The translations under genes were made by a program, and so were the position numbers. 33,682 nucleotides of DNA from Clostridia bacterium (GTDB taxonomy: Bacteria; UBA6262; WVXT01; JAUXBS01): NCBI GenBank assembly GCA_030618495.1, contig JAUXDE010000003.1:1-33682 (forward strand). The letters run 5' to 3'. The notes beneath the pieces were generated by a model that worked only from the letters and a program-made list of their open reading frames with translations, was not told the DNA's origin and ran no database searches. Shown one piece after another: positions 16,748 to 26,233 of this stretch (position 1 is its first letter; each line of letters begins with the position of its first letter).

Positions 16748-18682
16748 ATGAAAAGGGTAATTAATATTATTATTGTGGTTTCTTTGCTGGCATTCATCCC
16801 GGCGATGGCGTTTTTGCAGGAGGAGCAGGAGGCGACGGATGTACAGAAAGAGCCGGGGGTTGTGGTTGAGCAATCCGAGGGGGAAGTGAAACTTGATGTT
16901 GATGAAAAAATCATCGAACAGGAGAAGAAGCGGTATGTAGACGATATACTGATTTCCGGGAACACGGTAATAGATGAGAGTATTATAAAAAAAATGATGA
17001 AAACAAGGAAGAATCATATTTTTGATGAAGAGGTTTTCCTGCAGGACATGAAAAAGGTACTCCTGAAGTACAGGGATGAAGGTTATATATTTGCCATTAT
17101 TACAAAATCAGTGGAACTCACCAGTGAAGACGAGGATTACGTATATATAGTTTTAAGGACCCGGATAGACGAGAAGGATAAATACCTTGTGGAAAGAATC
17201 GACGTTGAAGGGAACATGACTTATCCTTTAAACTTTATCAAGGGAATGCTGATTTCCAAAGAGAACAAAACTTTTGATGAGAATATAATAGGAAAGGATA
17301 TAAATACAATACTGACATCGTATCAAAGCGACGGTTTCCCGGACGCCAGGATATTTCCGGGAATATCCGTAGACAGGGATACACATACGATAAATATTAT
17401 GCTGTCAATTGATGAGGGGAAACGCGGACAGGTAGGTGTCATAGAGGTGTTGGGTAACGAGTTTACAAAAACAAGCACGATTATAAGAGAGATGAGGGTC
17501 AGGGAAGGCGAGTATATTACCATGGAGAAGCTGGATGAGATAAAAAGGCGTTTACTGAAACTGCAAGTTGTAAGATATGAGAGTATGGAGCTGTACGATA
17601 CCGACGTTGAGGGGCAGGTGAAGCTGGTCGTTAAGGTGAAGGAGCAGAAGGTAAGCAAAGCCGGCGGTATTATCGGTTATAACCCGCCTACGAATGAAGA
17701 TGAGGAAGGCATTTTAGTAGGCCAGGTTGATATTGACCTTGGGAACCTGTTCGGCACGGCGAGAAAACTTAAGTTTCACTGGGAAAGGAAGAGCGAGGAC
17801 AGGTTTATCACGGAGTTAAGTTTTACTGAGCCCTGGTTATTCGGTCAGCCGGTTGAAGCCGGTTTTCATGTGAGACAGGAAGAGGATATAATCAATAAGG
17901 GTAATAAGGAAAATGAATATGAATATACCAATAGCAGCTGGGACGTTTCTGTTCTTACTTCGTTTACCCAGTTATTCAGCGGAGTTTTTAAATTCGGGCA
18001 AACGACGATTTCTAATCTTCCAAATGATAAAGTAAAGGATTCATTCACTTTTGATTATACGTTTGGAGTTGAGCTGGAAACCCTGGATATCCCGTGGAAT
18101 CCCACGAGAGGATTCAAGGATGATTTATCGGTTACTTTTGAAACAATGGAGAGTTCACCCATATTTCACATAACGTATAAAATAGACGGGAACTTAAGGC
18201 ATTATTTTAATATCTCAAAGAACAAAGTGATTTCGCTCAGGGGTAACGGTAAAGCGGTATTTTCAAACTCAGAAGAACTGATACCGGTACATAAGCATTT
18301 TAAACTCGGGGGGGCAAAGAATTTAAGGGGCTTTTTTGAAGACCAGTTCAACGGGGAGATAATGTGTGTTTTCAACAATGAGTTCCGTTTAATACTGAGC
18401 GAGGAATCTTTTGTGTCGGTGTTTTTTGATGTAGGAGCTTGTTGGAACAGCACCAATGAAGAAACAAAAAATATAACAACGATAGAAGATATTTCTGGTT
18501 ATATCAGTACCGGAACGGGGGCAAAAGGGGGAGTGGGCGGAGGCATGGGGTACGGGATAGGAATAAGCATGAAAGTGCTGGTCGGACAGATTAATATCAG
18601 CGTTGCGATGGGCCTTCCGGACCTCCTGTCTGACTTCATGAATAAAGCCAAGATTCATGCCGCGTTTGAAACGAAGTTTTAG
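16748..18682 (+). CDS. BamA/Omp85-family outer membrane protein with POTRA domains
   Basis: Signal peptide, repeated POTRA-like segments (VDDILISGNTVIDESIIKKMMKTRKNHIFDEEVFLQDMKKVLLKYRDEGY...; VERIDVEGNMTYPLNFIKGML...; VGVIEVLGNEFTKTSTIIREMRVREGEY), barrel motifs FKLGGAKNLRGF and SYTEPWLFG-like FTEPWLFGQ, terminal Phe. Confidence 0.9.
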   Translation: MKRVINIIIVVSLLAFIPAMAFLQEEQEATDVQKEPGVVVEQSEGEVKLDVDEKIIEQEKKRYVDDILISGNTVIDESIIKKMMKTRKNHIFDEEVFLQDMKKVLLKYRDEGYIFAIITKSVELTSEDEDYVYIVLRTRIDEKDKYLVERIDVEGNMTYPLNFIKGMLISKENKTFDENIIGKDINTILTSYQSDGFPDARIFPGISVDRDTHTINIMLSIDEGKRGQVGVIEVLGNEFTKTSTIIREMRVREGEYITMEKLDEIKRRLLKLQVVRYESMELYDTDVEGQVKLVVKVKEQKVSKAGGIIGYNPPTNEDEEGILVGQVDIDLGNLFGTARKLKFHWERKSEDRFITELSFTEPWLFGQPVEAGFHVRQEEDIINKGNKENEYEYTNSSWDVSVLTSFTQLFSGVFKFGQTTISNLPNDKVKDSFTFDYTFGVELETLDIPWNPTRGFKDDLSVTFETMESSPIFHITYKIDGNLRHYFNISKNKVISLRGNGKAVFSNSEELIPVHKHFKLGGAKNLRGFFEDQFNGEIMCVFNNEFRLILSEESFVSVFFDVGACWNSTNEETKNITTIEDISGYISTGTGAKGGVGGGMGYGIGISMKVLVGQINISVAMGLPDLLSDFMNKAKIHAAFETKF

Positions 18683-23968: not shown

Positions 23969-24835
23969 ATGAATAGAATAGAAGGCACGACGAGAATTGT
24001 GGGACTTATGGGCTATCCCATAGGCCATACTTTAAGCCCCGCGATGCATAATGCCGCGTTCAGGCGGCTGGGATTGGACTTCACCTACATCCCGATGCCC
24101 GTAAAGCCCGGGGATATTGAAAGGGCGGTGCAGAGCATCAAGCCGTTGGATATTTTGGGTGTTAACGTAACAGCGCCGTATAAAGAGGAAGTTTTAAAAT
24201 ACGTGGATGGCCTAAGAGGCGACGCAAAACTTATAGGGGCAGTGAACACCATTCATAATTCAGGCGGAAAATTGATTGGATATAACACGGATGCCGAAGG
24301 TTTCATTATTTCATTGAAAAGCGAAGGAAGAATAAACCCGAGGGGCAAGAACGTCCTGCTGGTTGGCGCGGGCGGAGTAGGCAGGGCAATAGGGGTGAAG
24401 CTGGCAGGCGTCGGGGTTTCAACCATCCTGATTGCGGATATTGATTCAAAGAAGTCAAATGCGTTGAAAAACCATATAAGGAAATGTTTCGGGAAAGTGT
24501 CTTCCGGAACGGAAGCGCGCGTAGTAAGTACACAAGAAATAAAAAAAGTAATGAAGAATATCGATATATTGATAAATGCCACTACTGTGGGGATGCATAA
24601 AAAAGACCCCTGCCTGGTAAATCCGGAGTGGTTCCACGGGAAATTGTTTGTATATGACGTAGTCTACAATATTGAAACAAAGCTTCTTAAAGAAGCAAGG
24701 AAGAAAGGGTTAAAAGCTCTTGGCGGATTGGGGATGCTGGTCCACCAGGGAGCGCTGGCGTTTGCGATATGGACGGGTAAGAAACCCCCGGTGAAAGTTA
24801 TGAGAGAAGCAATAATAAGGAAAGTGAGTGGGTAA
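23969..24835 (+). CDS. aroE: shikimate dehydrogenase
   Basis: VGLMGYPIGHTLSPAMHNAAFRRLGLDFTYIPMPV, GVNVTAPYKEEVLKYVD, GAVNTIHNSGGKLIGYNTDAEGF, LLVGAGGVGRAIGVKLAGVG, NATTVGM, GLGMLVHQGALAFAIWTGKKPPVKVMREAI. Confidence 0.96.
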   Translation: MNRIEGTTRIVGLMGYPIGHTLSPAMHNAAFRRLGLDFTYIPMPVKPGDIERAVQSIKPLDILGVNVTAPYKEEVLKYVDGLRGDAKLIGAVNTIHNSGGKLIGYNTDAEGFIISLKSEGRINPRGKNVLLVGAGGVGRAIGVKLAGVGVSTILIADIDSKKSNALKNHIRKCFGKVSSGTEARVVSTQEIKKVMKNIDILINATTVGMHKKDPCLVNPEWFHGKLFVYDVVYNIETKLLKEARKKGLKALGGLGMLVHQGALAFAIWTGKKPPVKVMREAIIRKVSG

Positions 24836-24838
24836 TAT

Positions 24839-24874
24839 ATTGGGAACAGAATACTTAAGTATTCTGTTCCCAAT
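24839..24874. repeat. perfect 36-bp palindrome (REP-like)
   Basis: ATTGGGAACAGAATACTTAAGTATTCTGTTCCCAAT: each 18-nt half is the exact reverse complement of the other; begins 3 nt after the aroE stop. Confidence 0.95.
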
Positions 24875-24882
24875 GTCAGCGG

Positions 24883-24951
24883 GGGAAGAAGGCCCCGGTG
24901 GAAGTAATGAGAAAGGCGATAATAAAACAAAGAATTATGGGGACACGTACT
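24883..24951 (+). pseudogene. second, diverged copy of the aroE 3' coding tail
   Basis: Reads GKKAPVEVMRKAIIKQRIMGTRT then TAA at 24952-24954; homologous to the annotated aroE C-terminus GKKPPVKVMREAIIRKVSG (24776-24832). By hand, 34/42 nt identical over the first 14 codons. Confidence 0.8.
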
Positions 24952-25028
24952 TAATTATTTCAATGCTTACTTAATTATTTTATGAGCATGGTCTGAGAAA
25001 AAATAATTAAGTACGTGTCCCCATAATT
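24933..25028. mobile_element. 96-bp MITE/REP-like element with perfect 28-bp inverted arms
   Basis: AATTATGGGGACACGTACTTAATTATTT (24933-24960) and AAATAATTAAGTACGTGTCCCCATAATT (25001-25028) are exact reverse complements around a 40-nt centre. A 13-nt direct repeat TACTTAATTATTT occurs at 24948-24960 and 24968-24980. Confidence 0.75.
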
Positions 25029-25045
25029 CAAAAAGGGAGGTAGCG

Positions 25046-26233
25046 ATGATGAGATATTATACTGCGGGAGAGTCTCACGGTAAATGCCTGGTTGTAGTGC
25101 TTGAGGGGATACCTTCAGGCCTCAGGCTGAATGAAGATGACATAAACAAGGAACTAAGACGAAGACAGCATGGTTATGGACGGGGCAAGAGGATGGAAAT
25201 AGAAAAGGACAGGGTGGAAATATTAAGCGGTATCCGTTTCGGGGAAACCATCGGAAGCCCTATCAGTATGATGATAGAGAATAAGGACTGGAGTAAATGG
25301 AAAGACACGATGTCTATAAGGGAGACCCGTGACATAAAAATCATGGAGAAACCCCTGACGCATCCCCGCCCCGGCCATGCCGACCTGCCGGGAGTATTGA
25401 AGTTCAGGCGCAGTGATATCAGGGATATTCTTGAGCGTTCCAGCGCAAGGGAAACAGCATCAAGGGTAGCCGTGGGGGCAGTATGCAAAAAACTCCTGGA
25501 TGTTCTCCGGGTCAAGGTCCTGAGTTTTACCAATGAGATAGGAGGAGTCTCCATTAAACTGCCGAAAACATACATGGTGGATATTGAAAAATTCATAAAA
25601 AAAGTGGAATTGTCAAAATTGAGATGTCCCGATAAAAACGCAGATAATATGATGGTGAAGGCTATAAATGCCGCTCATAAGAAAGGTGATACTCTTGGCG
25701 GTATTTTTAGCGTGATTGTGCATAATATTACTGCGGGCCTCGGGAGTCATGTCCAGTGGGACCTGAAATTGGATGCTAAGATTGCCCGGTCGATTATGAG
25801 CATACAGGGTATAAAAGGCGTTGAAATCGGCGCTGGTTTTGACCTTGCAAGAAAGATGGGCAGTGAAGTTCATGATGAAATATTTTTTAGGTCTCCTAAA
25901 AAGCGCGGCAGGGGATACTACAGGAGGACAAACAACGCCGGGGGTATAGAAGGCGGAATAAGCAATGGTGAAAAGATAATTGTAAGGGCGGTGATGAAGC
26001 CGATACCTTCATTGCAAACCCCGCTGCGTTCTGTTGATATACTTACTAAGAAACAGGTTAAAGCGGAGGTTGTTCGCGCGGATACTTGCGCCGTCCCTGC
26101 GGCGGGAGTAGTGGGTGAATCAGTAGTGGCGTTTGAAATAGCAAAGGCCATAAAGGAAAAATTCGGCGGAGACTGCCTGTTCGGTATGAAAAGCAACTAC
26201 AACGCGTACATAGAGTATGTGAAGAACCATTAA
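25046..26233 (+). CDS. aroC: chorismate synthase
   Basis: YYTAGESHGKCLVVVLEGIPSGLRL, RRRQHGYGRGKRM, HPRPGHADLPGVLKF, RSSARETASRVAVGAV, RTNNAGGIEGGISNGEKI. ATG at 25046 or 25049; RBS gggagg. Confidence 0.97.
   Translation: MMRYYTAGESHGKCLVVVLEGIPSGLRLNEDDINKELRRRQHGYGRGKRMEIEKDRVEILSGIRFGETIGSPISMMIENKDWSKWKDTMSIRETRDIKIMEKPLTHPRPGHADLPGVLKFRRSDIRDILERSSARETASRVAVGAVCKKLLDVLRVKVLSFTNEIGGVSIKLPKTYMVDIEKFIKKVELSKLRCPDKNADNMMVKAINAAHKKGDTLGGIFSVIVHNITAGLGSHVQWDLKLDAKIARSIMSIQGIKGVEIGAGFDLARKMGSEVHDEIFFRSPKKRGRGYYRRTNNAGGIEGGISNGEKIIVRAVMKPIPSLQTPLRSVDILTKKQVKAEVVRADTCAVPAAGVVGESVVAFEIAKAIKEKFGGDCLFGMKSNYNAYIEYVKNH

Follow-up and report, generated by a model that had tools for sequence, protein, structure and literature searches.

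The shikimate dehydrogenase gene aroE of this Clostridia bacterium is followed, in the window (by which we mean the whole stretch of 33,682 nucleotides that was analysed), by a diverged second copy of its own 3' coding end, and a perfect 36-bp palindrome lies between the two tails, as the initial annotation of this DNA had claimed. The feature is real, small and old, and it is not an element that routinely re-supplies gene ends. The reading we prefer, to which we give a little less than even odds, is that the aroE 3' end was duplicated locally long ago, with a REP-type hairpin at the joint. The features on which the argument turns are these:

23969 to 24835, forward strand: aroE (shikimate dehydrogenase), intact, ending with tail A
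24775 to 24835, forward strand: tail A, the last codons of aroE in use, GKKPPVKVMREAIIRKVSG and stop (sequence reading)
24839 to 24874, no strand: perfect 36-bp palindrome ATTGGGAACAGAATACTT/AAGTATTCTGTTCCCAAT, arms of 18, no spacer
24882 to 24930, forward strand: tail B, relic second aroE tail, GKKAPVEVMRKAIIKQ (alignment to tail A)
24932 to 25029, no strand: REP2, a REP-doublet hairpin (REPIN) with arms GAATTATGGGGACACGTACTTAATTATTT and its reverse complement (inverted repeat)
25046 to 26233, forward strand: aroC (chorismate synthase), downstream neighbour of aroE
Contig 61 of the same genome, L163 1155-1976: Y1_Tnp (RAYT-like) gene with flanking REPs

Two tails of one gene

The C-terminal end of the window's aroE reads ...WTGKKPPVKVMREAIIRKVSG and stop, and its last 15 or so codons recur at 24882-24925, where the best local alignment has 36 of 44 nucleotides identical and a score of 28. 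The maximum in 3,000 dinucleotide shuffles was 17 (mean 8.7), and when the 28 main genes of the window were tested for a downstream copy of their ends aroE alone was positive, with the others scoring 6-10; chance similarity is therefore rejected, and the tails pass the comparison with shuffled sequence that the initial annotation had proposed. Its counts of 34/42 nucleotides and 11/14 residues proved correct on recounting. A second complete aroE as the source of tail B was also rejected, the genome search having returned one aroE only, and a search of viral contigs for aroE relatives gave one distant match.

Tail B runs from 24882 as G GGG AAG AAG GCC CCG GTG GAA GTA ATG AGA AAG GCG ATA ATA AAA CAA, and its reading frame, GKKAPVEVMRKAII.., has its codons from 24883. 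Because it is out of frame, shifted 107 bases from tail A, and has no start codon, we regard it as a relic rather than a working gene end; we see no coding role for the duplicated tail today, and the space between the tails leaves no room for an ORF. Its description as an aroE terminus holds for about the first 16 codons, which are aroE-like, and fails for the RIMGTRT-stop end (from about 24931), which is read from an arm of the next hairpin, 24932-25029. Homology may extend back as far as 24875, the edge of the palindrome, but the sequence in between has decayed too far to reveal it.

The tails are 82% alike (18% diverged), and their longest identical run is 8 nt. Over 42 nt there are 8 differences, by which 3 of 14 residues are changed, and the altered codons comprise 4 synonymous and 3 non-synonymous ones, a proportion with P about 0.02 under random substitution. 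The coding-like divergence that had been read from third positions is thus only moderately supported.

The phylum is thinly sampled, with 6 genomes available for comparison. In the same-genus relative, G001, which is the one member of the genus compared, aroE has a single tail, GRKAPVDVMRKAIEKKVKK and stop, and aroC begins about 23 nt on, with neither a hairpin nor a second tail; AroE tails of the sister family read GQ[KR]AP[IV]EVMR. At the three differing residues of the first 14 codons tail B has A, E and K, and the relative has A, D and K, from which tail A departs with P, K and E. Across 109 AroE sequences the more frequent residue is that of tail B at the first two positions (A, then E) but that of tail A, E, at the third. 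When 16 codons are polarised with G001 as the outgroup, the A branch takes six changes (altering the residue in four codons) and the B branch three, though these numbers are tiny. The relative's residues are nearer to tail B, which also lies on the aroC side, and this bears out the suggestion that tail B is more like a functional aroE terminus than a slip duplicate of tail A. Indeed, the untranslated tail is more canonical than the tail in use, which is odd for a drifting relic, and this is the main point favouring the meeting of two alleles.

Under such a meeting, DNA from a related strain or species would have replaced aroE upstream by homologous recombination, and an illegitimate downstream joint at the palindrome would have left the resident tail B by aroC. 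We hold this to be possible but rather doubtful. It accords with the abundance of silent changes between the tails and with the retention of same-genus residues in tail B and not in tail A. It would also draw on a known process, homology-facilitated illegitimate recombination, which has been described from transformation and conjugation experiments (PMC3240628) and in which homologous and illegitimate joints together can leave a remnant of the resident gene end; unlike in those experiments, no donor allele was found here, in a phylum sampled by 6 genomes. However, the body of aroE follows the genus (the identity is 68% within the genus, to G001, and about 51% against the sister family), which is by sequence a vertical pattern, so the donor would have to be within the genus.

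The palindrome and the second hairpin

The palindrome starts three bases past the aroE stop. It is single-copy in its own genome, where its 19-nt head has no other match at <=3 mismatches, and it was absent from the viral contigs searched; that it is a multi-copy REP of its own genome is thereby rejected. Its head, TGGGAACAGAATACTTAA, is one base off TGGGAACACAATACTTAA and two off TGGGGACACAATACTTAA, which are heads of REPs dispersed in the sister-family genomes G002-G005. Overall it matches two sister-family REP heads with 1 mismatch and some 30 with 2 mismatches, against 0 for a reversed control pattern. When the arms of a sister-family-type REPIN are joined without the loop the result is GGGRACASAATACTTAAGTATTSTGTYCCC, which equals the palindrome seen, and we infer that the palindrome is probably a REPIN of the sister family's GGGRACASAATACTTAA type from which the loop was deleted. 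A passage in Bertels and Rainey (PMC3116915) mentions that deletion of a REPIN spacer yields a long palindrome, and the shape found here is that expected of a REPIN minus its spacer. Since its own genome has no further copies of it we call it REP-like or REP-derived and not a member, and its place in a REP family is presumptive. Its sister-family type, together with the lack of any other copy in its own genome, is also what a junction of two alleles could leave. Folded as single-stranded RNA, the palindrome reaches -26.2 kcal/mol (z -6.75), and without a T-run it is not a standard intrinsic terminator.

REP2, the hairpin behind tail B, has 29-nt perfect arms and a 40-nt loop. Its family, GAATTaTGGGGACACGTACyTAATTATT, to which the 36-bp palindrome does not belong, occupies about 24 loci of the genome, mostly as inverted pairs with variable loops, and the genome's only Y1_Tnp (RAYT-like) gene, an ORF of 218 aa on contig 61, is flanked by inverted REPs of the same family and is the probable source of this genome's REPINs. 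With repeated inverted REP hairpins and a RAYT gene flanked by the same REPs, the REP2 group is a REPIN family as Bertels and Rainey 2011 (PMC3116915) use the term. The palindrome differs from that system in being single-copy here and of the sister-family sub-type, and a diverged copy, 40-50 bp long, of the upstream gene's end beside the element is not among the REP/REPIN features described in the passages cited.

REPs also lie at the very end of coding sequences elsewhere, supplying the upstream stop, as at L333 (G005 contig 36, about 7120; ...LPWSHLEFWGHNT and stop) and L343 (G002 contig 62, about 16295; ...GIIE and stop), and REP2 likewise supplies a stop in frame with tail B. A REP head close to that of the sister family, GGGGACACCATACTTAATT, occurs in about 31 copies on contigs 4-127 of G044, a genome of a different phylum; heads of the GGGGACACCATACTTAATT type were matched in only 11 of the 115 genomes searched.

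A similar REP head stands behind each tail, TTGGGAACAGAATACTTAA in the case of A and ATGGGGACACGTACTTAAT in that of B, and a tail and its REP may therefore have been copied as one. A plain tandem duplication, in a unit of about 107 bp (tail plus REP head) that later diverged, would then account for the junction, with the REP playing no causal part. We think this unlikely: by eye the two heads agree at only about 70%, and they are of different sub-types, against 82% for the tails.

A second case at lpxB and the survey of other gene ends

The flank-against-flank test at REP sites of the relatives returned one outlier, with a score of 20 (988 mismatched controls gave <=19), on contig 38 of the sister-family genome G005. 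There a gene that we take, from its C-terminal sequence, to be lpxB ends in tail A (...AKIILEEAIASN and stop), and is followed by a 62-nt spacer, a REPIN, a diverged lpxB tail B and the next gene. Tail B (...SAKIILGEALTSN and stop) abuts the REP end, and its TGATG overlaps the start of the next, ABC-transporter-like gene; no REP follows this tail, which is a further point against tandem copying of tail and REP. The inside of the REP pair resembles, by eye, a RAYT C-terminus. Between the lpxB stop and the REP, at L196 712-782, lies a hairpin-like stretch, GTCAACTACTCCACCC...GTTGAC, that is possibly an IS200/IS605-type end.

Empty sites are found in G002, in two G003 haplotypes and in G004, where lpxB overlaps the next gene by TAATG or TGATG, and aligning filled with empty sites gives a duplication of 38 bp (37-40 bp). 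The pattern of a target duplication, one copy when empty and two when filled, is seen at lpxB; aroE has one distant empty relative, G001. The lpxB tail contains what is probably the next gene's ribosome-binding region (GGAGGAGG), so that an insertion at this point would presumably need the duplicate. Tail B differs from G003 at 8 of 40 bases and the next 600 bases at only 4 (Fisher P 4e-8), and the last 40 bases of tail A carry silent changes and a changed stop; the insert and its edges are thus more diverged than their surroundings, as if an old inserted allele had come by recombination.

In each case two genes on the same strand lie close together. The upstream one is intact, complete with tail and stop, and a REP hairpin follows it; directly behind the hairpin a diverged piece of the upstream gene end stands beside the downstream gene, and in both cases the tail in use is the upstream copy (A). 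The comparison weighs against the meeting of two alleles, because at lpxB the divergent copy is B although B adjoins native sequence, and the body of lpxB is native; moreover, recombination between alleles by itself leaves the REP exactly at both joints unexplained.

Such structures are rare. No duplicated gene tail abuts a REP at 83 other REP-type sites in three lineages, which comprise 20 others in the window's own genome, 31 in its relatives (30 of them sister-family sites, the other a weak match within the genus) and 32 in the unrelated REP-bearing G044; the flank tests also gave some matches that were weak or distant and no better than the controls. At the end of a biotin-carrier-like gene, where filled and empty sites can be compared (G002/G005 against G003/G004), the REP replaced a few stop-codon bases with no duplication. 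The duplication is therefore not a regular product of REP insertion.

A partial scan of ORF ends (about 6,000 in 2.5 Mb of genome stretches) yielded verified diverged copies of a recognised gene's coding tail at aroE and lpxB only. Both have a REP at the joint, and only lpxB counts as independent support for a link with REPs, since the window case was the starting point. The other matches examined were near-identical tandem repeats, low-complexity or intergenic: L258, L229, L252, L302, L032 and L094 are near-perfect tandem repeats and were set aside as recent, and the apparent tail matches L264 and L274 were dismissed, the first as a repeat between genes and the second as a chance resemblance within the following gene. 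A further match lies in L357. The corresponding scan for duplicated gene heads found only near-exact repeats or junction duplications, with none verified as REP-bounded in the manner of aroE and lpxB.

Duplications without a REP also occur. In G005 the hypC tail and hypD head stand in tandem on contig 10 (L293 14512-14598 and 14600-14686), over 87 nt with 4/4 differences silent (P = 0.004), and this has the appearance of a joint between the alleles of two strains, made by recombination or in assembly. Further along L293, at 16887-17137 and 17136-17386, is a tandem with a 249-nt period, made of a degraded gene end and the first codons of the next gene, 92% alike and again free of REPs. REPs are hence neither sufficient for such duplications, as the REP sites without them show, nor necessary, as hypC-hypD shows. 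The hypC-hypD case resembles an allele junction and to that extent favours a meeting of alleles at aroE, and the diverged junction tandems of L293 (periods 88 and 249 nt) are a point for tandem duplication independent of REPs.

The hypC-hypD case also bears on whether the window's two tails were brought into one contig by the assembler, through a join at the palindrome of reads from two co-occurring strains. These are draft assemblies, strain mixture is present (as in the two lpxB haplotypes of G003), and hypC-hypD resembles two joined strains. However, the palindrome occurs once in the assembly, there is no second aroE, and a join would still need reads with the palindrome directly before tail B in mid-aroE; the 18% divergence of the tails is, in addition, far above strain level. 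We consider an assembly error unlikely, and indeed the least probable of the explanations weighed here; a narrow literature search on chimeric metagenome contigs returned no match.

Origin and meaning of the duplicated tail

Under the preferred reading, an old local duplication with a hairpin at its joint, a REPIN would have entered the tightly packed aroE-aroC junction along with a duplication of about 45 bp (40-50 bp) of the aroE end, the copy being either a target duplication made on insertion or a product of repair or template switching at the hairpin. This would have left aroE whole and kept the original sequence beside aroC. The first REPIN would then have lost its loop to become the perfect palindrome, the tails would have diverged (by about 18%), and a second REPIN would have inserted where tail B ends. 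The only importance of the duplicated tail would be that it allowed an insertion between close-packed genes to survive, sparing both of them. For this account speak the similarity beyond chance, the single tail without insert in G001, the REP-like head of the palindrome and the second case at lpxB. Against it stand the changed state of the aroE tail in use beside a canonical relic, the reverse of what drift of a relic should give, and the lpxB tail B, which is too diverged for a recent duplication in that lineage, together with the 83 REP sites and the filled and empty pair without duplication, and the hypC-hypD duplication without a REP. We also count against it that IS200/IS605-type relatives of RAYTs make no larger target duplications (PMC2817692).

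The arrangement of gene end, element and second gene end as a direct repeat is shared with integrative elements that re-supply the 3' end of the gene they enter, such as islands in tRNA genes and some protein genes. Unlike these, the aroE junction has no integrase, cargo or identical att core, the element is 36 bp long and the upstream copy is not shown to derive from it. The initial annotation had suggested that a palindromic element may have been captured with, or recombined through, its neighbour's 3' end, in a manner resembling elements that re-supply gene ends. Neither capture of a gene end by the element nor re-supply is supported: no other REP copy in the sequences searched carries tail A or tail B, REPs sit at many sites without a tail and can insert without duplication, hypC-hypD was duplicated with no REP, and tail A is not shown to have been borne by the element.

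REPs are among the commonest bacterial repeats, and to our knowledge the insertion of new copies has hardly been seen so far. The same layout at an unrelated gene in the sister family suggests that hairpins can land in, or promote, small gene-end duplications, and a recurring duplication of gene ends bounded by REPINs makes a modest new lead; with two cases it is mainly that, a lead. We would wager only a little on the more general proposition that REPIN insertion into close-packed genes is, in a minority of events, coupled to a 40-50 bp duplication of the upstream 3' end. If it were true, the upstream C-terminus and the downstream leader would both survive, and REPINs would have a hitherto unreported way of integrating by which the hairpins gain entry to operons. 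The duplication of a gene end around a REPIN is now seen at two unrelated genes, from two families, and for one of these close relatives show the empty site; it offers a concrete footprint to seek, and it may explain how a hairpin can enter two overlapping genes with neither being broken.
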